From the NCBI RefSeq assembly GCF_005239225.2, contig NC_133287.1, positions 16,248,519 to 16,312,518 of the forward strand: a DNA stretch of 64,000 bases. Reading direction: 5' to 3'. The translations under genes and the position numbers were made by a program. The stretch's first letter is position 1. Each line of letters starts with the position of its first letter. The stretch is from Populus alba (lineage: Eukaryota; Streptophyta; Magnoliopsida; Malpighiales; Salicaceae). Below the pieces are notes generated by a model that had not been told where the DNA came from, did no database searches, and saw nothing but the letters and a program-made list of their open reading frames with translations. Below, piece by piece: positions 4,416 to 52,955 of this stretch.

Positions 4416-5050
4416 TTTAAGTGAAAATCAATACATCAAAGAACAATCATCATTTCTTATATGAAACCTATATAAAATATTGATAACAACATGTATTAAT
4501 TAATAATGTGAACTAAACAAATTATCAGTACACAACTAATTAGCTATCATCGGTTGAATTTAAACTTATTCATATATTTTAATAGTACCCTTTAAACATT
4601 ATCAATTTTCTCTAAGAAATTTAAACTCTTTCAAATTTACCAAAAAAATTCAACTTAACAATAAAATTGACAAAATATAAAACAAACCCATTGAATAACT
4701 CATTATTTATATCATTATATAGAACACCTAATGAAGTTACAAATAAAACTCAATTTCATCAAATAACAAACAAATAAAATTTTTTAAAATATCAAACAAA
4801 CCCTATCATGTACAAATCATGCATTCATACAATAAATTTGTATAGAAAAAAACTATAAAAACAAGTAAAGACACAAACAACTATATATACTACATAAAAA
4901 TGCTTTACAATAAAAATGGATAGGTTTGCCTACTTGATGTGGTGAATCTTAAAAAAATTGAACAAGAACAAGGATATTGACAGACTGGGTGTTGGGGTGG
5001 TTGGATTTGTGATTATAGAAGCTTGATTTGTGACAAAATAAAAGGGGGAA

Positions 5051-11345: not shown

Positions 11346-12700
11346 AAAAAAAAAAAAGGTTAATGCATTGTTAACTAGCCATGCTTTCAAATCATTTTGC
11401 TTTCTAAATGCTTTTGGGACAGTCTCTCGCCGTTCCAATCCATTCATGTATTGTATTATTAATCACTCTAGCCATGCTAGTTAACTACTTACACGGGATT
11501 CTCCCTCTTCCAAAACACTATTATTTCTCTCAACCATTTTAAAGATTAATGAAAACTAATAACAAATTGTAACAAAATCATGACCATTGGATCATGATTC
11601 TAAACACTATTATAGCATATCTGTTTTTAAAGTTTGTAATTGTTTTTTTAATATCTGTCAAAAATATTTTTTTACTACGACACAAAAAATTATTACAATA
11701 TAGACTTGGATAGTAAAATCATAAAATTATAAGTAATTGTTTAAAATAATTATATATTGACAATTCTAGCAAAGAAATTAAATTACATTAAAATCTAATA
11801 AAGTGAGTCAACAATATTATAATCAATGAATGATTTAAATAAAACTAGAGAAATAAATAATAAGAATCAATAAATTAATGACATGAAAAAATAAAAAATC
11901 TTAGATCAAAACTTGTCAATACAGGGAAATCACTAAATGATAAGAAGTAAACATGAACCTAATAGTTTCCTTTCGGGTTAAAAGCTAATCGGCTTAAAGT
12001 AGTAATTAACTAACATAAATTCAATAATGAAATAAAACTCCTAAACAATGTTTAATATGTTAGAAACAATTCAAATTAAAAATAATTAATTAAAATTAAT
12101 TAATTAAATAAAATATAATAATAAAAAAAGTCTTCATGTTAAAATTCCTTCATGTAACTCGAATCTTCAAATTTTTTATATTCTTGATAGATTTGAATAC
12201 TGATTTCAAATATATCATTCTCTTTCATCTGGATGAATTACTTAGCTTATAATATATGGTTGAAAAGCTTCAGATGTCTAGTTTCCACCTTAACTTTAGT
12301 CTCAGAAAACTTCCATCGGTAGCTTTAGATATGTTCTAAACAGTACACGAAGGTCTAGTTTGACATATTTAAAAAGATTCATCTACTGACTTTTCACCTC
12401 TGAAATATTATGTTCCTGAACTCTATTTGACATAACAATTCACCACAATATATTTTCATGTGTTTAATATTTTCTTGTAAAATTTCAGCTCTATCCAATA
12501 TACAGTTTAAAAGATATATTAAATCTCGTAAAACTGGTCAGCAGATATTTTAATGTTAAATTTGAACTTAACTTGGTTTATATCACAAATTTAGTAAACT
12601 CGTAAAATCGGATCAAATTTATCAATTTTACACTATTTAAATCTGATTTTATTAATTTTAAATTCTTAATCTAATTTTATACATTAAATATATATTGACA
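11346..12700. other. AT-rich intergenic DNA, no gene seen
   Basis: No coding region, RNA gene or clear repeat could be supported on either strand. Long A/T runs, stop codons in all frames and scattered low-complexity tracts are all that is visible. Confidence 0.5.
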
Positions 12701-29944: not shown

Positions 29945-30463
29945 TTGTGCTAGACCCAATATTTTTAGGATAAGCTACGCGCTAAATCCAAACAAATATG
30001 GGTCTAGAAAACTATCAGAACCAATATTCTTAGACTTAACCACGTGTTAAGCCTAAATACATATAGGTATGGTGAATTTCTCAGACTCAATATCCTTGGG
30101 TTCAGTTACACGCTAAGCCCAAGCACATGTGGATCTGGCAAGCTGCCGGATCCAGCATCCTTGGGTTCAGCCACGAGCTGAGCTCGAGTACATATGGATT
30201 TGACGAGTTGTCAGACCCAACATCCTTTAGTTTAGCTACTTGTATAGCCCAAGTACATGAGGGGACGAGCTACCAAACTCAACATCCTTGGATTCAACTA
30301 CGTGCTGAGCCCAAGTACATATAGGTCTGGCAAAGTGTTAGACCTAACATCTTTGGGTTTTAAATATGTGTTAAGTCTAAGTACATATATTTTTGGGGAG
30401 TTGTCAGACCTAACATTCTTGTGTTCAGCTATGCATTGAGCTCAAGTACATATAGGTCTGGCG
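29945..30463. repeat. Tandem repeat of about 63 bp, array 2 (host site of the OEP21-carrying element)
   Basis: Some eight to nine diverged units follow the pattern 'ggtctggcaagctgtcagacccaacatccttgggttcagctacgtgctgagcccaagtacatata'. The array is interrupted at 30463/32698 by the hAT-like element and resumes for about one unit (GGTATGGCGAGATACGAGACC...) at 32697-32760. ORFs inside it are fortuitous. Confidence 0.8.
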
Positions 30464-32697
30464 CGTGGTTGTCAAACTCGCAAGTTAACTCGTAAAATTG
30501 TCTGATTTTACGAGTCAATACAAATAGATCATGTGAAATCGGGTAAAAAACTCGAAAACCAGCAAAATCGGTTAAAATCAGTCAAACTCGATGAAATCAG
30601 ACCGATTTTACCAAGTATGACAAAATTAACAAAGACTACTGACTCTTTTCAGTCCTCTCCTCTCCATCCCGTTTGTCTCACAAAAATTCCCCTTTCCTCA
30701 AATCTCACATTCTCTTATTTTCAAATCTCAACCCTAGCACAACCAGACTAACAAGTAACACCAGCAACGCCTTCCACTCTCTTTCTTTCTCTCAAAACAC
30801 CCATTTTTCTCTCTCTACGCTCAAGTCTTCACCACTGCGATGAAGGCACAGCCATCAAAACCAAGTTCTTGCAATTTAGAGATATAACAATGGAGACATC
30901 TCTAAGATATGGAGTAGATTCCAAAGCCCTCAAAATTCATGCCAAAGAGAGGTTTGCCATTGATTTCATCACCCACTTGCAGGTAACTCTAATTGATTTC
31001 TTGATATTAATTATGGGAATTCTTTAAAATGTAAATTTAGGGCTTTAATTTTTTATTTTTGTTTTTGTTTAGGTTTATGGGGAGCTAGATACAAGAATTG
31101 GAGCTCCTAGTTATGTCAGTGCAATGATAAGACACTTTTATCCATATGTATGTTTCTTATAATCCTTAATATAAGGAGATAATTCTTGTTCTTTTATGAA
31201 TACGGGCTGACATTGTATTGATTTAACTGTAGTTGTTTGCTAGTCTTAGAGTGGGATTGCAATATGATAAGCATGAAAAAGTCAGGTATTTTGTTCGAGG
31301 AAAAAAGGGTTTTCCTGTGACAAATGATGGTTTGATAAATGATAAGCTTCAATGTTAAGGGACAATGTGATGTTGACAAAGAATTTAAACAGGTTGGTGT
31401 TTTCTTTGCATTTGGTATATGAGAATTGGTATTTTTTTTAAAAAAAAAATTGTAATGTAAGTTTTTGATACTGTGTAGTTTATTTGGAGATGTTGTTCAT
31501 TTAAGTAGATTGTAAGTTTTTGTCCTAGCTACCATATGCAACTAATATCTTCCTTCCCTTACCATGATAGAGGAATTCAAAAGTAGCTGTGGAAGTATCT
31601 TGGAGCATCTATAATTTCCATAGAGAAGAAGTTGTTAGATTCAGAATTGGGTATGAAGTGATTACCAAAGTACATTTCCCATAACTTTATAGTTAAAACA
31701 TCTGAAAGCCTGTGCATTGTGTTATACATAGTCAAAAGCAATTGCTTCCGACTTGAGTTGTCTTTTTTTTTTTCACTTTTTATTTATTTATTTTTCCTAT
31801 TTAAGTGCCTTGTTTGCAGATTAGGGAAAATAATTGGACCCTCAATGCTGACATGAATGGTAAATAGAATGTCAAATTTGATTTGTGAGCAAAGAAAAAG
31901 CATGATATATTCTCTTAGAGGTGAGATGCATGATTGTAGAATGTCTGTTGATATATTTCTTTGTTTTAGGTTCTGACCTGACTGAATAATAAACTACAAT
32001 ATGCTAATATGTATAGGGCCATCAATTAGATTTTTTACAAATTTTCATCCATCAAGAATTCTTACCTTTCATGCTGATTTTAGGTGATCTCTTTTTGTGT
32101 ATCTTGTTTGTTACAATTTGTCCCTCTTGTGGGATTCTGTAGAATGCTTAACTATTGTTCTCCATTGCTGATTATGGAACTTGTCGAACTAGCGTTTGTG
32201 ACTTGCATAAGGTATCCAACTAAGTGCATGTTGTATAACAAGTTAAGATAGGAAATCAACATATACTAATACCCCCACCCATTTATCTTCTAACACTTTA
32301 CTGCCAACATGTATTTAAATGAAGAAACTAAGAATGTCATTTGAGCTGATGAGCAAAAACTGGTATTTTTTTTTTTACAATAAACTCTTCTATTAATTTA
32401 TGTTTCTATTTGTTGATAAATTTGATTTTTTAAAAACTTTTTGGATGGATAGCTTGATTTCAGTTGGACATATCCAATCTTGTGTCTTTTTTTCCAGATG
32501 AAAGTGTCATGGTTTGTTTTATTTCACTTTTATTTTAATTATGTTATATTATTATTTACTACTTGACTATAATTGTCAATATATAATTAGTTAAATTATT
32601 TTACTTGTCGATTTTATGATTTTACGATTCGAGTTTACGATTCGAGTTTATATTATATATTATGTGTCTTGTCAAAAAAGCGTTTTTGACAACCTTG
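30464..32697. mobile_element. Gene-carrying hAT-like element (Pack-type), 2234 bp, containing an OEP21 pseudogene
   Basis: The left end reads CGTGGTTGTCAAACTCG. The right end in reverse complement reads CAAGGTTGTCAAAAACG. These are imperfect terminal inverted repeats whose right form fits the hAT end pattern (C/T-A-A/G-N-G). Flanking octamers are GTCTGGCG (30456-30463) and GTATGGCG (32698-32705): an 8-bp target-site duplication with one mismatch, the hAT length. Removing the insert restores a normal unit of the surrounding 63-bp array, independent support for the boundaries. Subterminal regions are rich in 'ttttacgagt'/'cgattttatgattttacgattcgag' motifs. No transposase is encoded; the cargo is an intron-bearing OEP21 pseudogene. 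The truncated duplicate in unit 2 (42451-44060) keeps only the right end. Confidence 0.7.
30890..31888 (+). pseudogene. OEP21 (chloroplast outer envelope pore protein 21) pseudogene, unit 1
   Basis: Exons: 30890-30982 (METSLRYGVDSKALKIHAK...), 31073-31147 (VYGELDTRIGAPSYVSAMI...), 31233-31392, about 31571-31686 and 31820-31888 (IRENNWTLNADMNGK...). The N-terminus, the LDTRIGAPSY block and the IRENNWTLNAD end are hallmarks of OEP21, a beta-barrel, anion-selective, ATP-gated pore of the plastid outer envelope. Exons 1-3 have GT-AG borders, so this is not a processed pseudogene. Lesions: a 7-bp duplication (TGATAAA) in exon 3 shifts the frame and brings a stop; exon 4 degenerates at its end; the tryptophan codon in the terminal WNV is TAG. 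It is carried by the hAT-like element at 30464-32697. Confidence 0.85.
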
Positions 32698-33109
32698 GTA
32701 TGGCGAGATACGAGACCTATCACCTTTAGGTTTAGCATCATTCCAAGTCCAAAAAGGTATGGAACTGATGATCGTTAGAGGCCTTATATTGGGAAACAAT
32801 GTGATATGGTTCAGTCATTGATTTCTTATGAAGGGTTTTTAATTTTGTGCTTGGGTTTGATAAGGATGCCATTTGACCAAGATTGTGTTTTTTTTTTGGA
32901 ATTTAGCTTGTGTTCCATTTAACCATGATGAGTTTTTGGGATGGGATAGTTTTAGCTAACCTTGGTTTATGTATGATGATGGGTTCGGTCCAATCTCTTT
33001 GATGGTTCTTTTGGCCAAATTAGGTCAACCCATGTATGGGTTTGATATAGACAACAAAATAGGCTTGTTGAGAACATGTATCAGGTCTAATTTGGGTTAT
33101 ATTAATACG

Positions 33110-34900
33110 TATAGGATGCAACAAATGACCTCAATGAATTGAATTTATTTGTACATAACCCAAGATATATGTTTTGTGGTTCTATTAAAAACTGAGGATG
33201 AATCCTATTAAACTATTTATGAGCCTCACTGTTGGAAGGGTGTACTATGACTTCATCCATGGTATCATGTGAATGATATCATGTCATGTGCGTAGTAGTC
33301 TTAAGAGACATAAATAACTTTTGCAACATAGAAGTGAGAAGGATCTCAGTTTTCTATATATGATAAGAGTTATTTTCTTAATAGTTTTGTTTTTATACCA
33401 AGCATAGCTAGATGTTTTGCACTTGATATAATCTGCATTTTCACGATAGTACAACATGCACTAGTTTGGACACATATTAGTTTTCTAGTATCCTAGACCA
33501 AGAGGATTCATAATGGATTTAGTTGCATATAAGTTTTCTTTCAACCTATTCCTTTTAAGTAAAATATTTCTTATCCATTTTATGATTTTGTCATTTTTAA
33601 TATCACTCACCCCATGATTTGACTTAATGATGAACACATGTGCAACAACCAATAATTTACTGTGATTTGTTATCATCCTATAATGGTTCGTTGGAATTTT
33701 TCAAAAGTTCAAAAAACCTAGTTGCGTTTACATTTAGTTCTTCATCTATATTTGAATATTTACTTGCATAACCATGATTCATTCTCATTGCATTCATCGC
33801 CATAATCCTATAAGGATTATTATCATCTACAACTCCATGCACGTTGCTAGAATTAGAAGTTGAGCTAACCATCCTTTCTATCATGATATCATAAGGAATA
33901 TAGGGTTCTTCATGTGCAAACCAGCACAAGTATTTTTCCATGAGCCTTTTTTTATAAAAGATGCATCGCACCAATATCTGGATTGAGAAACTTTTTATTC
34001 TTACATTTCTTACATGGATATCTAACACTACCTCCACTAATATTCTTCAAATTAGATATTGTATAATTAATAAAACTCTTTACCCCACTATAATAATTCA
34101 TCACGCACTAGCCTTCAAATAAAACTTGATACATCCAAGAAAGATGATCCATTACTTGTATAAAACTTATATAAAATATTGATGACACCGTGTATTAATT
34201 AATAATGTGAACTAAACAAATTATCGATACCCAACTAATTAGCTATCATTTCTTCAAATCAAACTTATTCAATCTATTTTAATAGTATCCTTTAGTCATT
34301 AATTATCAATTTTCTCCAAAAAAAATAAGTTTCTCCAAGTTTATAGAAATTTTAAAATTTAAAATAAAATTGACAAAATATGAAACATAATCATTAAATA
34401 ACCCATTATTTTTTTTCATTATAACACACCTAAGTTACAAAATAAACTCAATTTCATCAAATGACAAACAAATATAATTTTTCAAAATCTCAAACAAACC
34501 CTAACATGTACAATTTATACATTCGTAAAATAAATTTCTTTAGAAAAAAACTATAAAATAAGTAAACACGCAAACAAACTACATATACTGTAAGGGAAAA
34601 AAAAATACCAAAAAATAACATAAGAAAAATGAGTTACAAAATAAAAATGTAGGTTTGCTTACTTGATGAGGCGAATCATCAAAAAAAAAATTATGAACCA
34701 AGACAGGGATACTAACAGACTGAGTGTTATGGAGTGGCTAAATATCTGTCTAATTTTTTTTATTTTTTAAATTTCATCAGTTATTCTCTTAGCATTCATC
34801 GATGAAAATAGTAACATGATTTTTTGTCAATAAATATCACTATAATTTACTAACAATTTTTTTTTTTTGTTCGGTAATGTTATTTATATTTGATAATTTT
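33110..34900 (-). mobile_element. CACTA remnant upstream of CYP74 gene a, unit 1
   Basis: On the minus strand: a transposase-associated domain remnant (34037-33678, with YLCWFAHEEPY and IDEELNVNATRFFELLKNSNEPL), then the inter-domain block NHSKLLVVAHVF and NRLKENLYATKSIMNPLGLGY (33676-33485). The first TNP2 block (NSLRSFVASY, similar to TDGFNPF...) is near 33150. The terminal region at about 34760-34900 resembles the CACTA end seen at 5270-5413, but the terminus itself is eroded. It sits about 400 bp before the gene a start codon. Confidence 0.7.
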
Positions 34901-35204
34901 ACGATCAGCTAGAGGCAAAGTCTAACTTCACTTTTTTAAAAGCTTGATCAAGTCAACCTACGAGAGGCAAAATTTAACTTCACGACGTAAAAGTCTCGCA
35001 TTTGAACTCGAAATCTCATGTTTCTATCATGAAAAACTGGTCATTATATTGGGACACCAAATGATAAATATTCGCGTGAATTTTCGATAAGGTACGTAGA
35101 AATTTATATAGGCCTGAAGAAATCATGTCTCAATTACTAGTCAAGAACCGTGCACATAAAGAGTATCGAATGTAAACTCAAGGACAAGTAAACGTTGTAG
35201 ATAG

Positions 35205-35213
35205 TATAAATAG
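35205..35213 (+). promoter_or_regulatory. TATA box of CYP74 gene a, unit 1
   Basis: TATAAATAG, 82 bp before the ATG at 35295. The region 35040-35294 appears unchanged in unit 2 (46404-46658), so both copies probably share the same core promoter. Confidence 0.65.
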
Positions 35214-35294
35214 ACATGCATGGATCAATGGTGAAATCAGCTAATATTCCTCACTAAACTGCCAAACAAAGAGCACAATAAACTCAAGCTGAAA

Positions 35295-36725
35295 ATGTTT
35301 CCTCCTCGATCAGCAGTCCCATTGAAACCAATACCTGGTAGCTATGGCCTCCCTTTCTTTGGTGCCATCAAAGATCGTCTAGATTATTTCTATAACCAAG
35401 GGAAAGACGAGTTCTTCAGCTCCCGTGTTGAGAAATACAAGTCCACAGTTTTCAAAACCAATATGCCTCCTGGCCCTTTTATTGCTCAAAATCCGAGAGT
35501 CATTGCTGTTCTTGATGCAATATCATTCCCGATCCTCTTTGACACTTCCAAAATTGAAAAATTTAACGTTCTTGATGGCACTTACTTGCCCTCCTTGTCT
35601 TTCACTGGAGGATACCGAGTTTGTGCGTATCTTGATCCTTCTGAACCTAATCACACCTCTCTCAAATCCCTTTTCATGTCTGTCCTCGCATCCAAGCACA
35701 AGGACTTCGTCCCCCTTTTTAGGACTTGCTTGTCTCAAATGTTCATCGACATTGAAGATGAAGTGGGTTCTAAAAGGACAGCAAATTTCAATGACCCCAG
35801 TGATGCAATGTCTTTCAACTTTGTCTTTCGGCTATTCTGCGAAAAAGATCCCTCTGAAACAAAGCTTGGATCGGAAGGACCTGCCATGGTAGATAAATGG
35901 GTCGGCTTACAACTTGTTCCACTTGCAACCATAGGATTACCAAAGTTTTTGAAATATTTTGAAGATCTTTTGATACACACATTTCCAATACCATTTTTCT
36001 TAGTAAAGTCTGATTATAAGAAGCTTTATGATGCATTTTATGCGTCTTCGAGTTCGTTTCTAGACAAAGCTGAGAGTTTTGGAATTGACAGAGATGAAGC
36101 TTGCCATAACCTAGTGTTTGTTGCTGGTTTTAACGCTTATGGGGGCATGAAAGCTTGGTTTCCTACTTTGATCAAGTGGGTTGGCAAGGCAGGAGAGAAG
36201 TTACACAGCCAACTTGCGAATGAAATCAGGACCGTTGTTAAAGAGGAAGGTGGGGTCACCTTCCAGGCCCTGGAAAAGATGACTTTGACCAAATCAGTAG
36301 TTTTTGAAGCCTTAAGGATTGAACCCGGGGTCCCATTCCAATACGGGAAGGCTAAGGAGGACATTGTGATCAACAGTCATGATGCAGCTTATGAGATCAA
36401 GAAAGGTGAGATGATCTTTGGATATCAGCCGTTCGCTACAAAGGATCCTAAGATTTTCGATCATCCTGAGGAGTTTGTGGGGCATAGGTTTGTGGGAGAA
36501 GGAGAGAATCTATTGAAGTATGTTTACTGGTCAAACGGGCGGGAGACGGAGGATCCAACTGTGGGGAATAAGCAATGTCCTGGGAAGGATCTAATGGTGC
36601 TCTTGTCTAGGCTATTGGTGGTGGAGCTTTTCCTCCGATATGACACGTTCACGGTGGAGACGGCTGTGTTACCGTTTGGATCATCAGTGACATTTACTTC
36701 ATTGATCAAGGCCACAAGCACTTGA
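35295..36725 (+). CDS. CYP74 family enzyme (probably CYP74C: hydroperoxide lyase / allene oxide synthase-like), gene a, unit 1
   Basis: Intronless, 476 residues, the usual CYP74 size without a plastid transit peptide; it starts directly at MFPPRSAVPLKPIPGSYGLPFF, which fits the CYP74C type rather than plastid CYP74A/B. Landmarks: PPGPF at 58-62, I-helix block GFNAYGG with Asn280 (the position needed for hydroperoxide handling), K-helix E338-x-x-R341, and the heme ligand Cys428 in KQCPGKD, with the CYP74-type irregular loop before it (NGRETEDPTVGN). CYP74 enzymes use no O2 or reductase; they rearrange 9- or 13-hydroperoxides of linoleic/linolenic acid into aldehydes or allene oxides. Whether this one is lyase, synthase or mixed cannot be read from sequence alone. 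It is intact and differs from the unit 2 copy at two residues (V/M in DIEDEVGSK, M/V after GKDL). Confidence 0.9.
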   Translation: MFPPRSAVPLKPIPGSYGLPFFGAIKDRLDYFYNQGKDEFFSSRVEKYKSTVFKTNMPPGPFIAQNPRVIAVLDAISFPILFDTSKIEKFNVLDGTYLPSLSFTGGYRVCAYLDPSEPNHTSLKSLFMSVLASKHKDFVPLFRTCLSQMFIDIEDEVGSKRTANFNDPSDAMSFNFVFRLFCEKDPSETKLGSEGPAMVDKWVGLQLVPLATIGLPKFLKYFEDLLIHTFPIPFFLVKSDYKKLYDAFYASSSSFLDKAESFGIDRDEACHNLVFVAGFNAYGGMKAWFPTLIKWVGKAGEKLHSQLANEIRTVVKEEGGVTFQALEKMTLTKSVVFEALRIEPGVPFQYGKAKEDIVINSHDAAYEIKKGEMIFGYQPFATKDPKIFDHPEEFVGHRFVGEGENLLKYVYWSNGRETEDPTVGNKQCPGKDLMVLLSRLLVVELFLRYDTFTVETAVLPFGSSVTFTSLIKATST

Positions 36726-36779
36726 ACTTGCGAAGCTAAGTCTTGAAATATTTGCCTCTTCTCACAATATCCGAAATAG

Positions 36780-36815
36780 TTAAATATATATATATATATA
36801 TAATATTATATATAG
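36780..36815. repeat. (TA)n microsatellite after CYP74 gene a
   Basis: Longer than its counterpart at 48145-48161 in unit 2, so it is a potential length marker separating the two copies. Confidence 0.85.
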
Positions 36816-38251: not shown

Positions 38252-38399
38252 AGAATACAAGGAGAAGGAGAGAATAAAATCTTTACTGTAGCTAACAAGC
38301 TCAGATTTTTAAAAAAGAAGAAAAACAACATTTCATCATAGTGAAGAATGATCTGAGAGGTAGGGAGCTCTTCATATTTCTAACAAAATTAATAAAATA

Positions 38400-39600
38400 T
38401 AAAAGAGTAACCACACCCATAAATTAAACACTTGTTTTGAGTTTTATCTTTTCTTTTTTGTTTTTACTTTTTACACTTATTTTTTTTATCTCATCATTCT
38501 ATATTAATTAAATTATTTTAAAAATTATATTTCATAGCTTTTTTTATATTAAAGATTTAATCTTTTTATTTTCAATTTCAACTTTCAATATTAAATTAAT
38601 TAGAAGTGAATCTTTCTTATTCTTTTTATGTTTTTTTATAAACTTATCTTGATCTCTTGACCTAAGTTAAAAGTCATGTTAACCCAAGTTGCCTTGAATT
38701 ATTATTTTTGCTGCCTTTTCTAATAATTTTTATAATTTTATCTTTGAATATTGAATTGGTTAGAAATTAGACTTTGTAATTTTATATATATATTTCATGG
38801 GTTTATTCTAAACCCTGAATCACGAGTTTAACAAGTTTACATTATGTATTTTTTATCCTTTTCTAATTGGACTTCATATTTTTTCTAAGGAGTTATTATA
38901 ATTTCATATCCTAGATTGTAAATTTAACAGGTTGACTCAATTTATTTTTTTCAAGTTTTTTTTTTATTAATTTTTTTTTCAATTTCACCCTCTAACTAGA
39001 CAATTGTTTTTTAATTATTTTTTTCAATTTTATCCTTCCATATGAAGTTGTTTAGGAATCGAGTTTCGTAATTTTTTTAATTTGCTTTTTATGAAATTAT
39101 CTGTGTCTCATAAATTTAGTTTTTTTTCTTGATTTTAACTTTTAACATTGGGTCTAGTGAAAATAGATATTCATAACTTTTTTTTTATTTTTTTTTTATG
39201 AAGTTATTATGGGTTTATTACTTAGGTCAAGAATTTAATAGGATTGTGTGAGTTGACTTGGGTTATTTTCGTTTGATCCTTTTTTTAATTAGTATTTTTT
39301 CAATTTTACGTGTCAATATTTGGTTAATTGAAAATCAAGCTTCATAATTATTTTTTAATTTTTTTTTTATGGGGTTATCTCGATCTCATAACCTGGGTTG
39401 CAGATTTCACAGATTAACTCTGGTTGATTCAGATAGTTTTTTTTTTTTGTTTTTTATTTTTTTTTTTAATTTTATCTTTTAACATTCGATTGATTAAAAA
39501 TTAAGCTTTAATTTTTTTTATTTGTTTTCTATGAAATTATTATGATTTTATTACACAAATTGTAAATTTGATTGATGAGCCTAGGTCGATTCAATATATA
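38400..39600. repeat. Diverged T-rich tandem array upstream of gene b, unit 1
   Basis: Units of very roughly 130-150 bp repeat a pattern of 'tttcaattttatcctt', 'aatattgaattggttagaaattaga', 'ttttatgaagttattatgggttt' and 'aggttgactc'. The equivalent array in unit 2 is 49020-50260. No coding. It ends about 450 bp before gene b. Confidence 0.65.
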
Positions 39601-39985
39601 AAATTTATATTAGTTAATATATCATTGTATCAATATTTAAAAAAATATATTATTGAGTATATATTATATTTTAAGAAAAAATCCGTAAATCTAAAAGATT
39701 GTGGCCCCAGGCAACTGTACAGGATTGAATATGTTTTATTATTTTTCCTCATGTAAATCCGTTACTACCTTACGTGACATGTTTTGTGACCCACACACAC
39801 CCATCATCGCCACCGTGAATTATTAGTTGAATAATGAGAGTGCGCTTTAAATTTTTTAAGCATTTAGTAAGCATATTGAATCAAATCGTGTTGAAAAGCA
39901 AGAACATTTTTAATTCAACAACTATACAACTAGCATTAATTAATGAATTTGCTTGAGAACAATAATAACAAGAATGTTTTTAAGC

Positions 39986-39997
39986 TATTATATATTG
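39986..39997 (+). promoter_or_regulatory. Candidate TATA region of CYP74 gene b, unit 1
   Basis: TATTATATATTG, 78 bp before the ATG at 40064, less canonical than that of gene a. The counterpart lies at 50643-50654. Confidence 0.35.
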
Positions 39998-40063
39998 ATA
40001 CATGGCAATCCCTTGATTCACCACGAAGCAAGAAGAAAATCCAAACGCAAATAGTAATTGAAG

Positions 40064-41511
40064 ATGTCTCCTTCTTCCTCCTCCTCTTCTGAATCAAAAC
40101 TCCCGATGAAGCCGATCCCTGGTGATTATGGCATCCCTTTCTTCGGTGCAATCAGAGATCGTCTAGACTATTTCTATAACCAAGGTAAAGATGAGTTCTT
40201 TAAAACACGCATCCAAAAGCACAGCTCCACCGTCATCAAAACCAACATGCCTCCCGGCCCTTTCATCGCCAAGAACCCCAAAGTCATTGCTGTCCTTGAT
40301 GCAATTTCATTTCCGATCCTCTTTGACACTTCTAAAGTTGAAAAGTACAACGTTCTTGATGGCACTTTCTTGCCTTCTTTGTCCTTCTCTGGAGGATACC
40401 GTGTTTGTGCCTATCTTGACCCTTCCGAGACCAAACATACCGCTCTCAAATCCTACTTTATGTCTGTGCTTGCGTCCAAGCACAGTGAGTTTATTCCTCT
40501 CTTTAGAGCCTGCTTGTCACAACTGTTCATCAGCATTGAGGATGGCATAGCGTCTCAAAAGAAAGCAAATTTCAACAACCCTTGTCAGGTCATGTCTTTC
40601 AACTACATTTTTCGTCTCTTTTGCGGTAAAGACCCGTCTGAGACCTCGATTGGGTCGAAGGGACCGGCCATTGCTGATAAATGGCTGGCTCTACAACTCG
40701 GACCACTTTTTACCCTAGGATTACCTAAGTTCTTGAAATATGTTGATGATCTATTGCTGCATACATTTAAATTACCATTCTTCTTAGTAAAATCTGATTA
40801 CTATAAGCTTTACGATGTGTTTTATGCGTCTTCGGGTCCGATTTTGGACAAATCTGAGAGTTTCGGGGTTACAAGAGAGGAAGCTTGCCATAATCTTGTG
40901 TTTCTCGCTTGTTTTAGTACTTATGGAGGCTTAAAAGTCTGGTTTCCTGCTTTGATCAAATGGGTTGGCCTGGCGGGAGAAAAGCTGCACCGTCAGCTCG
41001 CAGATGAAATCAGGACCGTTGTTAAAGAAGAAGGTGGGGTCACTATCCAAGCGATGGATAAGATGGTTTTTGACAAAAATCTGTTGTTTATGAAGCTTTC
41101 AGGATTGAACCTCCGGTTCCATTCCAGTACGCCAAGGCCAAGGAAGATATTGTGGTCGAAAGTCATCACGCGGCCTATAAGATCAAGAAAGGTGAAATGA
41201 TCTTTGGATATCAGCCGTTCGCCACGAAGGATCCTGAGGTTTTTGATGATGCTGAGGAGTTTGTGGGGCATAGGTTTGTGGGGGAGGGAGAGAAGCTATT
41301 AAAGTATGTTTATTGGTCAAACGGGCGTGAGACTGTGGATCCAACGGTGGAGGATAAGCAATGTCCAGGGAAGGATATGGTAGTGCTTCTGTCTAGGCTA
41401 ATGTTGGTGGAGTTCTTCCTCCGTTATGACACGTTTACCGTGGAGACGGCAGTTTTGCCGATTGGATCATCCGTGACTTTCACCTCGCTGGGTAAAGCCA
41501 CCAGCATTTGA
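40064..41511 (+). pseudogene. CYP74 gene b, unit 1: frameshifted copy
   Basis: The true start is the ATG at 40064 (MSPSSSSSSESK); the codon two triplets earlier is TTG. It is intronless and colinear with the intact copy at 50721-52166. At 41066-41080 the T-run is five instead of four and the next A-run five instead of four, a net +2 shift near codon 336. Translation then leaves the frame and stops at 41200, giving about 378 residues without the K-helix ExxR and the heme Cys, so it cannot bind heme normally. The remainder (41152-41511) is open in the other frame and still encodes KQCPGKD. No other stop is present, so the lesion is very young or a sequencing/assembly artefact at two homopolymers. 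Confidence 0.85.
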
Positions 41512-42293
41512 CGATGGTCACCCAGCTGCCTCCGGTCATGTTCTATTTTGCGGGCTGCTTTGATAGCTGCCCTTCCTTTTTGGTGGCTAATACCCATGCA
41601 CTACATTGGCTTTGAGCGAATTATCAAAGTATTTCAAATAAACTAGTCCTCCTCTCGCCTGAAAGCATCATCGTTATGTATAATAATCATTTTCATGTCA
41701 CAGTTTCATACAAGTTGGAGTGTATCATTTTCTAATAGCTCTTCCTTTTGTGCACAAATCTGACGTTGGTTTGGAGTGTATCGTCGTCGTTCAAAGTTTG
41801 TATAATGCCCTTTCTTAATGCTATTTGAATTACCATTTTCTCGTGTGTTCTTGAATCTTTTAGTTGTTCTTGTGTGACAGTGGCATCTCTCTTAATAGGC
41901 AAATAGGTACTGGCTTTCCATACATAGATTCTGGACCAGGAAACCTCTGAATTGCATGTTCGATCGAGTAAATAAATCCTTCATGAAGTCTGATAGAACT
42001 CTGCGACTAGTGGAAGTCTCGCTTTCGCCACCATTAATATCTAAAAAATCTTGTCAAAACAATGAGCCAGTCGTCGTTTCTTCTTTATGAAGTTGATGAA
42101 CGTTGCTGGCGCTGGCAGTCTGATACCTAACAAAGCCTGGGTTTTTCCAACAACATGGAGGAATTATCTTCCATCAAACGTCATCTTGTTGATTTAAAAT
42201 GCATTTTTTAAAATCAACAAGGGAAGACTCTGAGGCGGCTTTGACTTCAAATGCTGAGCTCGTGTTGATAAAGCTACAGAATATTTCTTCCAG

Positions 42294-42451
42294 ATAATTG
42301 GACCCTCAATGCTGACATGAATGGTAAATAGAATGTCAAATTTGATTTGTGAGCAAAGAAAAAGCATTATATATTCTCTTAGAGGTGAGATGCGTGTGAT
42401 TCTAGAATGCCTGATGATATATTTTTTTGTTTTAGGTTCTGACCTAACTGA
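42294..42451. repeat. Out-of-order filler at the duplication junction
   Basis: About 157 bp copied from the last OEP21 exon and its flank (source 31830-31985, also present at 43193-43348) sits between the end of unit 1 (TTTCTTCCAGA, 42294) and the start of unit 2 (GATACAAGAATTGG, 42452). It carries the same TAG lesion as the source exon. One base or so of microhomology at each join. Confidence 0.85.
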
Positions 42452-43251
42452 GATACAAGAATTGGAGCTCCTAGTTATGTCAGTGCAATGATAAGACACT
42501 TTTATCCATATGTATGTTTCTTATAATCCTTAATATAAGGAGATAATTCTTGTTCTTTTATGAATACGGGCTGACGTTGTATTGATTTAACTGTAGTTGT
42601 CTGCTAGTCTTAGAGTGGGATTGCAATATGATAAGCATGAAAAAGTCAGGTATTTTGTTCGAGGAAAAAAGGGTTTTCCTGTGACAAATGATGGTTTGAT
42701 AAATGATAAGCTTCAATGTTAAAGGACAGTGTGATGTTGACAAAGAATTTAAACAGGTTGGTGTTTTCTTTGTATTTTGTATATGAGAATTGGTATTTTA
42801 AAAAAAAAAAAATTTGTAATGTAAGTTTTTGATACCGTGTAGTTTATTTGGAGATGTTGTTCATTGAAGTAGATTGTAAGTTTTTGTCCTAGCTACCATA
42901 TGCAACTAATATCTTCCTTCCCTTACCATGACAGAGGAATTCAAAAGTAGTTGTGGAAGTATCTTGGAGCATCTATAATTTCCATAGAGAAGAAGTTGTT
43001 AGATTCAGAATTGGGTATGAAGTGATTACCAAAGTACATTTCTCATAACTTTATAGTTAAAACATCGGAAAGCCTGTGCATTGTGTTATACATAGTCAAA
43101 AGCAACTGCTTCCGACTTGAGTTGTCTTTCTTTTTTCACTTTTTATTTATTTATTTTTCCTATTTAAGTGCCTTGTTTGCAGATTAGGGAAAATAATTGG
43201 ACCCTCAATGCTGACATGAATGGTAAATAGAATGTCAAATTTGATTTGTGA
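42451..43251 (+). pseudogene. OEP21 pseudogene, unit 2 (5' truncated)
   Basis: It starts part-way through exon 2 at the duplication join, so exon 1 and the start codon are missing. Exon 3 (42597-42756) carries the same 7-bp duplication as unit 1, exon 4 follows near 42936, and exon 5 (43183-43251) has the same TAG. The shared lesions show the gene was dead before the segment was duplicated. Confidence 0.85.
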
Positions 43252-43259
43252 GCAAAGAA

Positions 43260-44060
43260 AAAGCATGATATATTCTCTTAGAGGTGAGATGCATGATTGT
43301 AGAATGCCTGTTGATATATTTCTTTGTTTTAGGTTCTGACCTGACTGAATAATAAACTACAATATGCTAATATGTATAGGGCCATCAATTAGATTTTTCA
43401 CAAATTTTCATCCATCAAGAATTCTTACCTTTCATGCTGATTTTAGGTGATCTCTTTTTGTGTATCTTGTTTGTTACAATTTGTCCCTCTTGTGGGATTC
43501 TGTAGAATGCTTAATTAATGTTCTCCATTGCTGATTATGGAACTTGTCGAACTAGTGTTTGTGACTTGCATAAAGTATCCAACTAAGTGCATGTTGTATA
43601 AGAAGTTAAGATAGGAAATCAACATATACTAATACCCCCACCCATTTATCTTCTAACACTTTACTGCCAACATGTATTTAAATGAAGAAACTAAGAATGT
43701 CATTTGAGCTAATGAGCAAAAACATGTATTTTTTTTTTTTACAATAAACTCTTCTATTAATTTATGTTTCTATTTGTTGATAAATTTGATTTTTTAAAAA
43801 CTTTTTGGATGGATAGCTTGATTTCAGTTGGATATATCCAATCTTGTGTCTTTTTTCCAGATGAAAGTGCCATGGTTTGTTTTATTTCACTTTTATTTTA
43901 ATTATGTTATATTATTATTTACTACTTGACTATAATTGTTAATATATAATTAGTTAAATTATTTTACTTGTCGATTTTATGATTTTACGATTCGAGTTTA
44001 CGATTCGAGTTATATTATATATTATGTGTCTTGTCAAAAAAAACGTTTTTGACAACCTTG
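43260..44060. mobile_element. Right part of the hAT-like element, unit 2
   Basis: Continues to the terminal sequence ending GACAACCTTG (44060), followed by GTATGGCG (44061-44068), exactly as in unit 1. With the left terminus gone it cannot transpose. Confidence 0.65.
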
Positions 44061-44479
44061 GTATGGCGAGATACGAGACCTATCACCTTTAGGTTTAGCA
44101 TCATTCCAAGTCCAAAAAGGTATGGAACTGATGATCGTTAGAGGCCTTATATTGGGAAACAATGTAATATGGTTCAGTCATTGATTTCTTATGAAGGGTT
44201 TTTAATTTTGTGCTTGGGTTTGATAAGGATGCCATTCGACCAAGATTGTGTTTTTTTTTTTTTGGAATTTAGCTTGTGTTCCATTTAACCATGATGAGTT
44301 TTTGGGATGGGATAGTTTTAGCTAACCTTGGTTTATGTATGATGATGGGTTTGGTCCAATCTCTTTGATGGTTCTTTCGGCCAAATTAGGTCAACCCATG
44401 TATGGGTTTGATATAGACAACAAAATAGGCTTGTTGAGAGCATGTATCAGGTCTAATTTGGGTTATATTAATAAGTATA

Positions 44480-46265
44480 GGATCCAACAAATGACCTTAA
44501 TGAATTGAATTTATTTGTACATAACCCAAGATGTATGTTTTGTGGTTCCATTAAAAACTAAGGATGCACCCTATTAAACTACTTCTAAGCCTCACTGTTA
44601 GAAGGGTGTACTATGACTTCATCCATCGTATCATGTGAATGATATCATGTCATATGCTTAGTAGTCTTTAGAGACATAAATAACTTTTGCAACATAGAAG
44701 TGAGAAGGATCTCAGTTTTCTATGTATGACAAGAGTTATTTCCTTAATAGTTTTGTTTTTATACCGAGCATAGCTACATGTTTTGCACTTGATAAAATCT
44801 GTATTTTCACGATAGTACAACATGCACTAGTTTGGACACATATTAGTTTTCTAGTATCCTAGACCAAGAGGATTCATAATGGATTTAGCTGCATATAAGT
44901 TCTCTTTCAACCTATTCCTTTTAAGTAAAATATTTCTTATCCATTTGATGATTTTGTCATTTTTAATATCACTCACCCCATGATTTGACTTAATGATGAA
45001 CACATGTGCAACAACCAATAATTTACTGTGATTTGTTATCATCCCATAATGGTTCGTTGGAATTTTTCAAAAGTTCAAAAAACCTAGTTGCGTCTACATT
45101 TAGTTCTTCATCTATACTTGAATATTTACTTGCATAACCATGATTCATTCTCATTGCATTCATCGCCATAATCCTAGAAGGATTATTATCATCTACAACT
45201 CCATGCACGTTGCTAGAATTAGAAGTTGAGCTAACCATCCTTTTTATCATGATATCATAAAGAATATAGGGTTCTTCATGTGCAAACCAGCACAAGTATT
45301 TTTCCATGAGCCTTTTTTTATAGAAGATGCATCGCACCAATATTTGGATTGAGAAACTTTTTATTCTTACATCTCTTACATGGATATCTAACACTACCTC
45401 CACTAATATTCTTCAAATTAGATATTGTATAATTAATAAAACTCTTTACCCCACTATAATAATTCATCACGCACTAGCCTTCAAATAAAACTTGATACAT
45501 CCAAGAAAGATGATCCATTACTTGTATAAAACTTATATAAAATATTGATGACACCGTGTATTAATTAATAATGTGAACTAAACAAATTATCGATACCCAA
45601 CTAATTAGCTATCATTTCTTCAAATCAAACTTATTCAATCTATTTTAATAGTATCCTTTAGTCATTAATTATCAATTTTCTCCAAAAAAGTAAGTTTCTC
45701 CAAGTTTATAGAAATTTTAAAATTTAAAATAAAATTGACAAAATATGAAACATAATCATTAAATAACCCATTATTTTTTTCATTATAACACACCTAAGTT
45801 ACAAAATCAAACTCAATTTCATCAAATGACAAACAAATATAATTTTTCAAAATCTCAAACAAACCCTAACATGTACAATTTATACATTTGTAAAATAAAT
45901 TTCTTTAGAAAAAAAACTATAAAATAAGTAAACACGCAAACAAACTACATATACTGTAAGAAAAAAAAAACCAAAAAATAACATAAGAAAAACGAGTTAC
46001 AAAATAAAAATGTAGGTTTGCTTACTTGATGTGGTGAATCTTCAGAAAAAAAAATTATAAACCAAGACAGGGATATTAACAGACTGAGTGTTATGGAGTG
46101 GCTAAATATCTATCTAATTTTTTTTATTTTTTAAATTTCATCAGTTATTCTCTTATCATTCATCGATGAAAACAGTAACATGATTTTTTGTCAATAAATA
46201 TCACTATAATTTACTAACAATATTGTTTTTTTGTTCGGTAATTTTATTTATATTTGATAATTTTA
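44480..46265 (-). mobile_element. CACTA remnant upstream of CYP74 gene a, unit 2
   Basis: Duplicate of 33110-34900. It keeps the transposase-associated remnant (45403-45023) and inter-domain block (45042-44851). A few small indels and substitutions distinguish it from the unit 1 copy. Confidence 0.7.
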
Positions 46266-46568
46266 CGATCAGCTAGAGGCAAAGTCTAACTTCACTTTTT
46301 TAAAAGCTTGATCAAGTCAACCTACGAGAGGCAAAATTTAACTTCACGACGTAAAAGTCTCGCATTTGAACTCGAAATCTCATGTTTCTATCATGAAAAA
46401 CTGGTCATTATATTGGGACACCAAATGATAAATATTCGCGTGAATTTTCGATAAGGTACGTAGAAATTTATATAGGCCTGAAGAAATCATGTCTCAATTA
46501 CTAGTCAAGAACCGTGCACATAAAGAGTATCGAATGTAAACTCAAGGACAAGTAAACGTTGTAGATAG

Positions 46569-46577
46569 TATAAATAG
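46569..46577 (+). promoter_or_regulatory. TATA box of CYP74 gene a, unit 2
   Basis: TATAAATAG, 82 bp before the ATG at 46659, identical in sequence and spacing to unit 1. Confidence 0.65.
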
Positions 46578-46658
46578 ACATGCATGGATCAATGGTGAAA
46601 TCAGCTAATATTCCTCACTAAACTGCCAAACAAAGAGCACAATAAACTCAAGCTGAAA

Positions 46659-48089
46659 ATGTTTCCTCCTCGATCAGCAGTCCCATTGAAACCAATACCT
46701 GGTAGCTATGGCCTCCCTTTCTTTGGTGCCATCAAAGATCGTCTAGATTATTTCTATAACCAAGGGAAAGACGAGTTCTTCAGCTCCCGTGTTGAGAAAT
46801 ACAAGTCCACAGTTTTCAAAACCAATATGCCTCCTGGCCCTTTTATTGCTCAAAATCCGAGAGTCATTGCTGTTCTTGATGCAATATCATTCCCGATCCT
46901 CTTTGACACTTCCAAAATTGAAAAATTTAACGTTCTTGATGGCACTTACTTGCCCTCCTTGTCTTTCACTGGAGGATACCGAGTTTGTGCGTATCTTGAT
47001 CCTTCTGAGCCTAATCACACCTCTCTCAAATCCCTTTTCATGTCTGTCCTCGCATCCAAGCACAAGGACTTCGTCCCCCTTTTTAGGACTTGCTTGTCTC
47101 AAATGTTCATCGACATTGAAGATGAAATGGGTTCTAAAAGGACAGCAAATTTCAATGACCCCAGTGATGCAATGTCTTTCAACTTCGTCTTTCGTCTATT
47201 CTGCGAAAAAGATCCCTCTGAAACAAAGCTTGGATCGGAAGGACCTGCCATGGTAGATAAATGGGTCGGCTTACAGCTTGTTCCACTTGCAACCATAGGA
47301 TTACCAAAGTTTTTGAAATATTTTGAAGATCTTTTGATACACACATTTCCAATACCATTTTTCTTAGTAAAGTCTGATTATAAGAAGCTTTATGATGCAT
47401 TTTATGCGTCTTCGAGTTCGTTTCTAGACAAAGCTGAGAGTTTTGGAATTGACAGAGATGAAGCTTGCCATAACCTAGTGTTTGTTGCTGGTTTTAACGC
47501 TTATGGGGGCATGAAAGCTTGGTTTCCTACTTTGATCAAGTGGGTTGGCAAGGCAGGAGAGAAGTTACACAGCCAACTTGCGAATGAAATCAGGACCGTT
47601 GTTAAAGAGGAAGGTGGGGTCACCTTCCAGGCCCTGGAAAAGATGACTTTGACCAAATCAGTAGTTTTTGAAGCCTTAAGGATTGAACCCGGGGTCCCAT
47701 TCCAATACGGGAAGGCTAAGGAGGACATTGTGATCAACAGTCATGATGCAGCTTATGAGATCAAGAAAGGTGAGATGATCTTTGGATATCAGCCGTTCGC
47801 TACAAAGGATCCTAAGATTTTCGATCATCCTGAGGAGTTTGTGGGGCATAGGTTTGTGGGAGAAGGAGAGAATCTATTGAAGTATGTTTACTGGTCAAAC
47901 GGGCGGGAGACGGAGGATCCAACTGTGGGGAATAAGCAATGTCCTGGGAAGGATCTAGTGGTGCTCTTGTCTAGGCTATTGGTGGTGGAGCTTTTCCTCC
48001 GATATGACACGTTCACGGTGGAGACGGCTGTGTTACCGTTTGGATCATCAGTGACATTTACTTCATTGATCAAGGCCACAAGCACTTGA
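46659..48089 (+). CDS. CYP74 family enzyme (probably CYP74C), gene a, unit 2
   Basis: Intact intronless 476-residue duplicate of the gene at 35295. It keeps PPGPF (58-62), Asn280 in GFNAYGG, E338-x-x-R341 and heme Cys428. Only two residue changes were seen (Met in DIEDEMGSK; Val after GKDL), neither at a known catalytic position, plus about four silent changes. Identical upstream DNA to about 250 bp suggests co-expression with the unit 1 copy, so the pair may act as a dosage increase for fatty-acid hydroperoxide metabolism. The product class (lyase versus allene oxide synthase) is not resolved. Confidence 0.9.
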   Translation: MFPPRSAVPLKPIPGSYGLPFFGAIKDRLDYFYNQGKDEFFSSRVEKYKSTVFKTNMPPGPFIAQNPRVIAVLDAISFPILFDTSKIEKFNVLDGTYLPSLSFTGGYRVCAYLDPSEPNHTSLKSLFMSVLASKHKDFVPLFRTCLSQMFIDIEDEMGSKRTANFNDPSDAMSFNFVFRLFCEKDPSETKLGSEGPAMVDKWVGLQLVPLATIGLPKFLKYFEDLLIHTFPIPFFLVKSDYKKLYDAFYASSSSFLDKAESFGIDRDEACHNLVFVAGFNAYGGMKAWFPTLIKWVGKAGEKLHSQLANEIRTVVKEEGGVTFQALEKMTLTKSVVFEALRIEPGVPFQYGKAKEDIVINSHDAAYEIKKGEMIFGYQPFATKDPKIFDHPEEFVGHRFVGEGENLLKYVYWSNGRETEDPTVGNKQCPGKDLVVLLSRLLVVELFLRYDTFTVETAVLPFGSSVTFTSLIKATST

Positions 48090-48305
48090 ACTTGCGAAGC
48101 TAAGTCTTGAAATATTTGCCTCTTCTCACAATATCCGAAATAGTTAAATATATATATATAGTTTTTTTTAAATGAATACAAGGAGAAGGAGAGAATAAAA
48201 TCTTTACTGTAGCTAACAAGCTCAGATTTTTAAAAAAGAAGAAAAACAACATTTCATTCATAGTGAAGAATGATTTGAGAGGTAGGGAGCTCTTCATATT
48301 TCTAA

Positions 48306-49027
48306 CAAAATAGTTTCTTGTAAACCTTTTTTTTTATTATTTGTTTGATCTAGTCTTGAAATTTTTATCAAGTGTTGGGCGGCTAGTGAAGAGGAAGGAA
48401 GGAGGACTTCTTGGGCGGCTGCCGACATGGAGGAACGCAGGAGTCAGGTCTTGGTGGGAAGCCTATATTTTATATTGGAGTTGGATAGGGCAAGGCTTGG
48501 ATTTTTAAAAATAATATATTATAATAAATTAAAAGATTTGATAAAATAAAAACATTTTAAAAAAATTAATCACGTTTCTATAACATTATTTTACTAAATA
48601 TTTTTATTTTAAAACATTAGTGCTTCAATAAAATCATGCATGAACTTTCGAAGCAGCATTCGATCACTCTTGCAAGCAAGGTTGGCTCTTTAATTACTCT
48701 CTTAGATCTCTAAATAACTAAGAATCAGGTCGGAATTACTTTTAAAAAAAATTGATATAGATGTCATGCAAACTATAATTTTTTTTATTTTATTAGTTTT
48801 GTGGGTTTTGATGAAATACAGGATGAAGATGACGATCATTGCTTTAACTTATTTGCTAAAAAAACAGAACTTTTCAATTTATCCAAAGATTTTTAAGCTC
48901 ATCTTAATTATAAGAAATTAAATACCAGGAATAAGACATGTTGTCACTTTGACGATTTAGGTATTTGGATAAACATATCTAATTCTGATTAATTAGCGAC
49001 TTGGATGGCTAAATAACCAAGCAAAAT
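48306..49027. repeat. 716-bp segment present only in unit 2, flanked by CAAAAT
   Basis: Unit 1 has a single CAAAAT at 38384-38389 where unit 2 has two (48306-48311 and 49022-49027) around unrelated sequence containing 'gggcggctagtgaagaggaagg'. This is either an insertion with a 6-bp target duplication or a deletion in unit 1 by microhomology. The inserted DNA has no recognised coding or terminal repeats. Confidence 0.75.
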
Positions 49028-50260
49028 TAATAAAATATAAAAGAGTAACCACACCCATAAATTAAACACTTGTTTTGAGTTTTATCTTTTCTTTTTTCTT
49101 TTTTCTTTTTACTTTTTACTTTTATTTTTTTTATCTCATCATTCTATATTAATTAAATTATTTTAAAAAATTATATTTCATAACTTTTTTTATTTTATTT
49201 TTATTTTAAAGATTTAGTCCTTTTGTTTTCAATTTCAACCTTCAATATTAAATTAATTAGAAGTGAATCTTTGTTATTTTTTTATTTTTTTTATAAACTT
49301 ATCTTGATCTCTTAACCTAAGTCACAAGTCATGTTAACCCAAGTTGCCTTGAATTATTATTTTTACTGCCTTTTCTAATTAATTTTTATAATTTTATCCT
49401 TGAATATTGAATTGGTTAAAAATTAGACTTTATATATATATATATATTTCATGGGTTTATTATAAACCCAAAACCTGAATCACGAGTTTAACAAGTTTAC
49501 ATTATGTATTTTTTATCCTTTTCTAATTGGACTTCATATTTTTTCTAAGGAGTTATTATATTTTCATATCCTAGATTGTAAATTTAACAGGTTGACTCAA
49601 TTTATTTTTTCAAGTTTTTTTTATTGATTTTTTTTTTCAATTTCACCCTCTAACTAGATAATTTTTTTATTATTTTTTTTTTTCAATTTTATCCTTCAAT
49701 ATCAAGTTATTTAGGAATCGAGTTTCGTAATTTTTTTTATTTTATTTTTTATGAAATTATCTCAGTCTCGTAAATTTAGTTTTTTTTCTTGATTTTAACT
49801 TTTAATATTGGGTCTAGTGAAAATAGATATTCATAACTTTATTTTATTTTCTTGTTATGAAGTTATTATGGGTTTATTACTTAGGTCAAGAATTTATTAG
49901 GATTGTGTGACTTGACTTGGGTTATTTTCGTTTGATCCTTTTTTTAATTGGTATTTTTTCGATTCTACCTATCAATATTTGGTTAATTGAAAATCAAGCT
50001 TCATAATTATTTTTTAATTTGTTTTTTATGGGGTTATCTCGATCTCATGACCCGGGTTGTAGATTTGACAGATTAACTCTGGTTGATTCAGATAGTTTTT
50101 TATTTTTTTTATTTTTTTTCCAATTTTATCTTTTAACATTCAATTAATTAAAAATTGAACTTTAATTTTTTTTATTTGTTTTCTATGAAATTATTATGAT
50201 TTTATTACACAAATTATAAATTTGATTGGTGAGCCTAGATCGATTCAATATATTATTTGA
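49020..50260. repeat. Diverged T-rich tandem array upstream of gene b, unit 2
   Basis: Duplicate of 38400-39600 with many small length differences in T-runs. Confidence 0.65.
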
Positions 50261-50720
50261 AAATTTATATTATTTAATATATCATTGTATCAATATTTTA
50301 AAAAAATATTATTAAGTATATATTATATTTTAAGAAAAAATCCGTAAATCTAAAGATTGTGGCCCCACGCAACTGTACAGGATTGAATATGTTTTATTAT
50401 TTTTCCTAATGTAAATCCGTTACTACCTTACGTGATATGTTTGGTGACCCACACACACCCATCATCGCCACCATGAATTATTAGTTGAATAATGAGAGTG
50501 CGCTTTAAATTTTTTAAGCATTTAGTAAGCATATGAATCAAATCGTGTTGAAAAGCAAGAGCATTGTTAATTCAACAACTATACAACTAGCATTAATTAA
50601 TGAATTTGCTTGAGAACAATAATAACAAGAACGTTTTTAAGCTATTATATATTGATACATGGCAATCCCTTGATTCACCACGAAGCAAGAAGAAAATCCA
50701 AACGAAAAAAGTAATTGAAG

Positions 50721-52166: not shown

Positions 52167-52955
52167 CGATGGTCACCCAGCTGCCTCCGGTCATGTTCTA
52201 TTTTGCGGGCTGCTTTGATAGCTGCCCTTCCTTTTTGGTGGCTAATACCCATGCACTACATTGGCTTTGAGCGAATTATCAAAGTATTTCAAATAAACTA
52301 GTCCTCCTCTCGCCTGAAAGCATCATCGTTATGTATAATAATCATTTTCATGTCACAGTTTCATACAAGTTGGAGTGTATCATTTCCTAATAGCTCTTCC
52401 TTTTGTGCACAAATCTGACGTTGGTTTGGAGTGTATCGTCGTCGTTCAAAGTTTGTATAATGCCCTTTCTTAATGCTATTTGAATTACCATTTTCTCGTG
52501 TGTTCTTGAATCTTTTAGTTGTTCTTGTGTGACAGTGGCATCTCTCTTAATAGGCAAATAAGTACTGGCTTTCCATACACAGATTCTGGACCAGGAAACC
52601 TCTGAATTGCATGTTCGAGTAAATAAATCCTTCATGAAGTCTGATAGAACTCTGCGACTAATGGAAGTCTCGCTTTCGCCACCATTAATATCTAAAAAAT
52701 CTTGTCAAAACGATGAACCAGTCGTTTCTTCTTTATGAAGTTGAAGAACGTGGCTGGCAGTCTGATACCTAACAAAACCTGGTTTTTTCCAAAAAAAGAA
52801 ATTAATTAGCGGAACGCATATGCCAAAGCGCAGACCATGGAGGAATTATCTTCCATCAAAAGTCATCTTGTTGATTTAAAAGGCATTTTTTAAATCAACG
52901 AGGGAAGACTCTGAGGCGGCTTTGACTTCAAAAGCAACAGAATATTTCTTCCAGA
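52167..52955 (+). other. 3' flank of gene b, shared with unit 1 (41512-42294)
   Basis: Conserved between units apart from small indels. It probably includes the 3' UTR. A minus-strand ORF at 52387-52635 has no recognised product and is not retained as a comparable ORF in unit 1; it is not called as a gene. Confidence 0.5.

Follow-up and report, generated by a model that had tools for sequence, protein, structure and literature searches.

Pack-TYPE elements of the hAT type (Pack-hATs) have been described in maize and rice, and a neighbouring-insertion model has been proposed for Pack-TYPE elements, hAT elements included (PMC8903248). In animals, hATs account for 208 of 370 Pack-TIRs (TIR, terminal inverted repeat); microhomology at the joins of these elements ranges from 1 to 36 bp with a median of 2 bp, and gap filling is favoured for the single-copy cases (PMC8277862). 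Histone H3-like genes have been found in fungal hATs (PMC6710886, PMC3538342). We describe an element, W, at positions 30464-32697 of a 64,000-nucleotide stretch of Populus alba DNA (the window; C4:16248519-16312518 of a 416-Mb assembly in 96 contigs). From sequence comparisons, we consider it well supported that W is a non-autonomous hAT-type Pack-TYPE element, or Pack-hAT, with an almost whole, intron-bearing, broken copy of OEP21, which encodes a pore of the chloroplast envelope. The ends of W and the array around it are listed here (TSD, target-site duplication; A and B are two subfamilies of related elements):

30081-30463, restarting at about 32698-32768: tandem array with a period of about 65, split by the insertion of W (Tandem Repeats Finder)
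30456-30463, no strand: left TSD, GTCTGGCG, a 7/8 match to the right octamer
30464-30476, plus strand: left TIR, CGTGGTTGTCAAA, 11/13 paired with the right TIR
30464-30808, plus strand: left end of W, including a pyrimidine-rich leader that is common to group-A relatives (from alignment)
32514-32697, plus strand: right end of W, of the group-B type (from dispersed right-end matches)
32685-32697, minus strand: right TIR, TTTGACAACCTTG on the forward strand, reverse complement CAAGGTTGTCAAA
32698-32705, no strand: right TSD, GTATGGCG

A preliminary description, made from the window alone, had reported the inverted ends and the near-identical 8-bp direct repeat, and both hold up at the 11 TIR bases and 7 octamer positions given above. 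It had also stated that removing W in silico restores the period of a 63-bp array. The array does continue beyond W, but its period is 65, not 63 (at 30081-30463, by Tandem Repeats Finder). The right flank of W aligns to the array consensus that ends at the left edge of W without gaps, over 67 columns and with a score of 21, so the array resumes once W is excised. The best of 1,000 shuffles scored 15, and none of 2,000 75-mers drawn at random from the window's first 28 kb reached 21. (Against the single array unit just left of W, the right flank needs four small gaps.)

W has many relatives. A whole-genome DNA search with W, in which 40 of 703 candidates were scored, gave at least 58 matches: 32 to the right end, 21 to the left end, and 5 that were W, its local copy, or OEP21. 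By our own count, left and right ends are paired 0.5-1.1 kb apart in the same orientation in at least 16 places. Among the dispersed right-end matches listed, 31 of 32 are 83-94% alike to W and one is 73% alike. With the left 349 bp as the query, there were at least 50 matches (40 of 314 candidates scored), and for the eight best dispersed matches with coverage above half of this length, similarity to W is 70-81%. A 25-base TIR pattern that was built on the family occurs at 438 places in the genome with up to 3 mismatches; the reversed pattern, used as a control, occurs at none. The check for copies that share these ends thus found a dispersed family. As to copies with and without OEP21, many relatives lack it, but the only other copy found to bear it is a local tandem duplicate.

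To score TSDs, we used 37 two-ended elements (36 loci and W). We had fetched 51 regions; two were OEP21 loci, and 13 without two clear ends were omitted from the count (L012, L021, L024, L025, L040-L043, L051, L052, and L058-L060). In 22 of the 37 elements, the octamers have at most one mismatch, and 12 of these are perfect; in the other 15, they match at 6 or fewer positions. If flanks are mispaired, then 8 of 1,332 combinations reach 7 matching positions. (Boundaries were fixed for scoring, so that L020, whose octamer appears only at a 1-bp offset, was counted as a miss.) The array-score, TIR-pattern, and TSD controls together rule out a chance origin for the TIRs and octamers of W.

The class had first been deduced from the length of the TSD and the pattern of the ends. 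It is now directly backed by dispersed elements that share these ends and show 8-bp TSDs. hATs prefer T as the second and A as the seventh base of their 8-bp TSDs, and among the 12 perfect TSDs, T is at position 2 in 8 and A is at position 7 in 7 (binomial p of 0.02 and 0.07 against a 34% background). hAT TIRs start with a YARNG-type consensus; the right TIR begins with CAAGG, which fits, while the left TIR of W (CGTGG) and the left type of group A (CATGG) fit less well. Mutator-like elements and Helitrons are better known for capturing plant genes, which we count in favor of another class. However, Mutator-like elements make 9-bp TSDs and often have long TIRs, and Helitrons have neither TIRs nor TSDs. 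W has both, with an imperfect TIR of 13 bp; the TSDs of the family are 8 bp with the position bias just described; and the short TIRs start with CAAGG. It thus has neither the 9-bp TSD and long TIR of a Pack-MULE nor the form of a Helitron, and we give membership in either class hardly any credence. As far as the ends can tell, the assignment to hAT is sound.

The cargo comprises these features, with identities to the donor gene on contig C5:

30809-32513 (W 346-2050), plus strand: captured OEP21 genomic segment, from upstream of the ATG to the 3' flank, 88.6% over 1754 columns to C5:22899812-22901547
30890-30982, plus strand: OEP21 pseudo-exon 1, 90/93
31073-31147, plus strand: OEP21 pseudo-exon 2, 73/75
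31233-31392, plus strand: OEP21 pseudo-exon 3, 148/153 and 7 extra bases, with a 7-bp tandem duplication at about 31333-31346 (frameshift)
31571-31669, plus strand: OEP21 pseudo-exon 4, 92/99
31805-31888, plus strand: OEP21 pseudo-exon 5, 81/84, with TGG changed to TAG at 31865-31867

The donor is intact, with five exons, GT-AG introns, and a 167-amino-acid protein. This protein matches PDB 7bgh, "Outer envelope pore protein 21" (E = 3.3e-70); Pfam has no family for it, so its identity as OEP21 rests on the PDB match. Together with the exon-by-exon alignment, this bears out the description of the cargo as a nearly full-length, five-exon OEP21 pseudogene. The cargo extends from about 80 bp 5' of the ATG, presumably the 5' untranslated region, through all 5 exons and 4 introns to about 624 bp past the stop codon. 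Because introns and flanks were kept, OEP21 was taken up as genomic DNA. Apart from W, genome searches (4 of 4 and 19 of 19 candidates scored) found OEP21 only at the donor, which is the sole complete OEP21 found, in a fragment with two exons on C2, and in the local truncated copy. The C2 fragment (L010, C2:427475-427889) is limited to exons 2-3, carries small insertions in the latter, and is perhaps the remains of a duplicated gene.

By its sequence, the OEP21 copy in W is a pseudogene: besides the 7-bp frameshift and the TGG to TAG change, the last acceptor is altered (taa before exon 5, as against cag in the donor), and we see no sign of function. W and the donor differ at 20 of 504 exon positions and at 96 of 1,099 positions in the introns and 3' flank, which is a Jukes-Cantor (JC) distance of 0.093. 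(This figure leaves out the 5' part, which is identical at 69 of 81 positions.) The lower divergence of the exons might suggest selection on the cargo. We reject this because of the ratio of 14 nonsynonymous changes (the stop included) to 6 synonymous ones, which is near the neutral expectation of 3.2:1, and because of the changes that the C2 fragment polarizes: 5 of these 7 are on the W branch and are all nonsynonymous, and 2 are on the donor branch (13 changes are unpolarized). Most likely, the donor was constrained and the cargo was not.

How did OEP21 come to lie between these ends? At both joins, donor homology stops where element-end homology starts. On the left, W departs from group-A sequence (CCCATTTTTTTCTTTATTTC...) near a CTCT that is common to the donor, with about 4 bp of microhomology; on the right, the donor (CATGGT) passes into group-B sequence with 1-2 bp in common. 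The pyrimidine-rich leader of the left end, which longer family members also have, looks like a 5' untranslated region. These joins bear on the idea that a segmental duplication or random insertion brought OEP21 to C4, and that the ends and octamers are unrelated neighbours or arose by chance. The region does duplicate, and the truncated OEP21 copy arose in that way. However, donor homology runs straight into element-end homology on both sides, the TSD lies at the outer ends, the array resumes, and genome searches with OEP21 found no C4-type copy with wider C5 flanks. We consider this explanation very improbable.

Separate trees for each end, with 28 of the 37 elements, place the left end of W among group A (nearest are L063 at 83% and L062 at 81%); the right end groups with B, L016 and L023 being nearest (both at 91%). 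Support is moderate, at 0.86-0.97 on the left nodes that part W from the main group-B elements. This suggests, with moderate support, that ends from two subfamilies, A on the left and B on the right, came to flank the gene and that the whole then moved together. With a TSD around mosaic ends, the simplest reading is that the composite moved as a unit, as in the model put forward for Pack-TYPE elements (PMC8903248). We think it likely, although unproved, that W traveled with its cargo on board and that the TSD was made on arrival.

Several observations weigh against this account. In simple pairwise identity to W, the left ends of group B (75-77%) do no worse than those of most group-A elements. 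Elements with in-between ends exist (L034-L037 and L039), so the mosaic could go back to a single progenitor. The right end of W differs from the group-B consensus at 8.6% of positions (15/175), compared to a mean of 7.8% for the 30 copies behind the consensus (the local copy's row there is cut one base too far right), and the cargo's own share of donor divergence, about half of the JC distance, is below this. No remnant of an element was found with W as the query in 8.7 kb at the donor locus. The search for an autonomous partner, described below, likewise gave none.

Some of these observations fit gap filling in place: an empty hAT was already in the array, a break in it was repaired by copying OEP21 from C5, and the gene never traveled by transposition. 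Since the right end is more diverged than the cargo's share, the element end may predate the capture, which would allow for later filling. W is also a single insertion (the other OEP21 copy on C4 is a tandem duplicate), and at its joins the shared stretches, about 4 bp (CTCT) on the left and 1-2 bp on the right, lie within the range reported for animal Pack-TIRs (PMC8277862). On the other hand, the ends of W group with different subfamilies, so a single resident element would have to have been mosaic beforehand, although in-between elements do exist. We consider gap filling unlikely, but it deserves real weight.

If W did move as a composite, then a group-A left end and a group-B right end would have bracketed the OEP21 transcription unit of C5, or a duplicate of that unit, in an ancestor, whether by neighbouring insertions or by template switching where 1-4 bp of microhomology were available. 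With a hAT transposase acting in trans, everything between and including these ends would then have been inserted into the C4 array, which created the TSD, and OEP21 would have decayed without constraint. Later, a tandem duplication of about 11.4 kb, of the adjoining CYP74 cluster, broke inside the cargo and left a truncated second copy.

Other members of the family also appear to carry host genes. We compared ten peptides from seven family elements to Pfam. L060 has a protein kinase domain (PF07714, 4.8e-9, above the cut-off) and L058 has a weaker match to the same family (1.2e-4, just below the cut-off); the cargo of both is a piece of a receptor-like kinase. L060 has a perfect 8-bp TSD, ATGGAGAC, and a decayed left TIR; its ends were set after the count, so it is not among the 22 of 37. 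Another copy of the kinase, at C5:17840244-17840958, has a 176-amino-acid frame that runs past the part in the element. No element ends were found in 3.4 kb around that copy, which is weak evidence, since the same test missed the ends in L066 and L068. In L022 (element 2128-4045), there is an NB-ARC domain (2.9e-9, above the cut-off), and in L014, a weak RRM (0.016). The peptides from L057 and L062 had no Pfam match. The interior peptide of L036 (element 989-2059), which we take to resemble a RALF peptide precursor, had no convincing Pfam family to confirm this. TSD matches are 4/8 at L014, 3/8 at L036, and, which counts against our main account, only 2/8 at the ends set in L022, so the boundaries or histories of these three are less sure. 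On balance, it looks as if capture was recurrent and the family took up host genes more than once. More tentatively, and with more doubt than confidence, we suggest that this hAT family may have a habit of enclosing host genes between ends drawn from different subfamilies, and that it may be able to lift a near-complete, intron-bearing unit as DNA and place it behind an element-derived leader.

Outside the donor-aligned part (346-2050), W has only 345 bp and 184 bp of ends, and it encodes no transposase. We found no autonomous hAT that shares these ends among 150 scored PF05699 places (of 412 candidates) when these were compared to 162 listed end positions, which is no proof of absence, as most of the 438 pattern places are outside that listing. 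Two of the PF05699 places are within 10 kb of a listed end, each on the side that faces away from the element. An inverted pair of family-like ends, 3.9 kb apart at C1:46671943-46675859, could mark a longer or autonomous relative. A search of a plasmid collection gave no match to the query, which is uninformative for plant DNA.

The duplication to the right of W left two further pieces of OEP21:

42294-42451, plus strand: 158-bp OEP21 piece (exon 5 and beyond) at the junction of the tandem duplication, 94.3% to 31830-31985
42451-44060, plus strand: 5'-truncated copy of the cargo and right end, from the local tandem duplication

Positions 31087-36796 recur at 42451-48160 (98.1%), and this homology continues for more than 4 kb beyond the end of the element. 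Similarly, 38384-42254 recurs at 49022-52935 (94.8%). As judged by these alignments, 31087-52935 is a tandem duplication of about 11.4 kb that carries CYP74 P450 genes. The difference between its two parts (98.1% and 94.8%) hints at partial gene conversion or at two events. The junction lies inside OEP21, where the 158-bp piece is a templated insertion between the end of one unit and the start of the next. We asked if the second 3' end, at 44048-44060, could mark another insertion; the homology of over 4 kb past the element rules this out. Since 42451-44060 was made by tandem duplication, it is not a second transposition. Neither this copy nor the donor on C5 had been noted in the preliminary description.

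CYP74-type P450 genes or copies are at 35295-36725, 40058-41511, 46659-48089, and 50715-52166. The first, which is the only one that we compared to solved structures, matches CYP74A2 in PDB (E = 3.3e-177). The open reading frame at 40058 is shortened to 380 amino acids, compared to 483 in its duplicate at 50715. A sequence of about 1.6 kb is present in three copies (3418-4993, 33104-34728, and 44470-46092); the last two are part of the tandem duplication, and the first resembles them at about 75%. A W-like family end on the minus strand at 11656-11802 (70% match to the family right end) is perhaps an old, decayed member.

In the literature that we searched, we found nothing that links OEP21 to a transposon, or that combines Pack-TYPE, hAT, and Populus; we make no wider claim of absence. 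Neither "Populus" nor "poplar" appears in the main text of the paper on Pack-hATs (PMC8903248). The preliminary description had called capture of a near-whole gene by a hAT unusual. Pack-hATs are already published (PMC8903248, PMC8277862, PMC6710886, PMC3538342), so this stands only in that a near-whole, intron-bearing gene is less usual. W gives a sharply bounded plant case, with the donor and the joins known, in which a hAT holds nearly a whole nuclear gene instead of a fragment. The ends, which appear to be mosaic, are relevant to the question of gene uptake by Pack-TYPE elements, and if composite capture is correct, then W would be a frozen record in which the neighbouring-ends model can be tested at one site.

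Like W, the Pack-hATs of maize and rice have non-autonomous hAT ends, 8-bp TSDs, host cargo, and shared ends with differing interiors; the pieces whose lengths are given there are 58-280 bp, whereas W has a near-whole five-exon gene with its introns (PMC8903248). The histone H3 genes in fungal hATs resemble the cargo of W in being whole or near-whole housekeeping coding sequences, decayed in P. fijiensis (PMC6710886; PMC3538342). The P. fijiensis H3 has no introns and occurs hundreds of times, while the cargo of W is genomic, intron-bearing, and single (PMC6710886). The single-copy Pack-TIRs of animals are also like W in copy number and in the microhomology at their joins, but the gap-filling model for them implies that both ends came from one resident element, and the ends of W look mosaic (PMC8277862). 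Overall, W is a clear but fairly ordinary gene capture of a known kind, and its points of interest are the completeness of the captured gene and the apparently mosaic ends.
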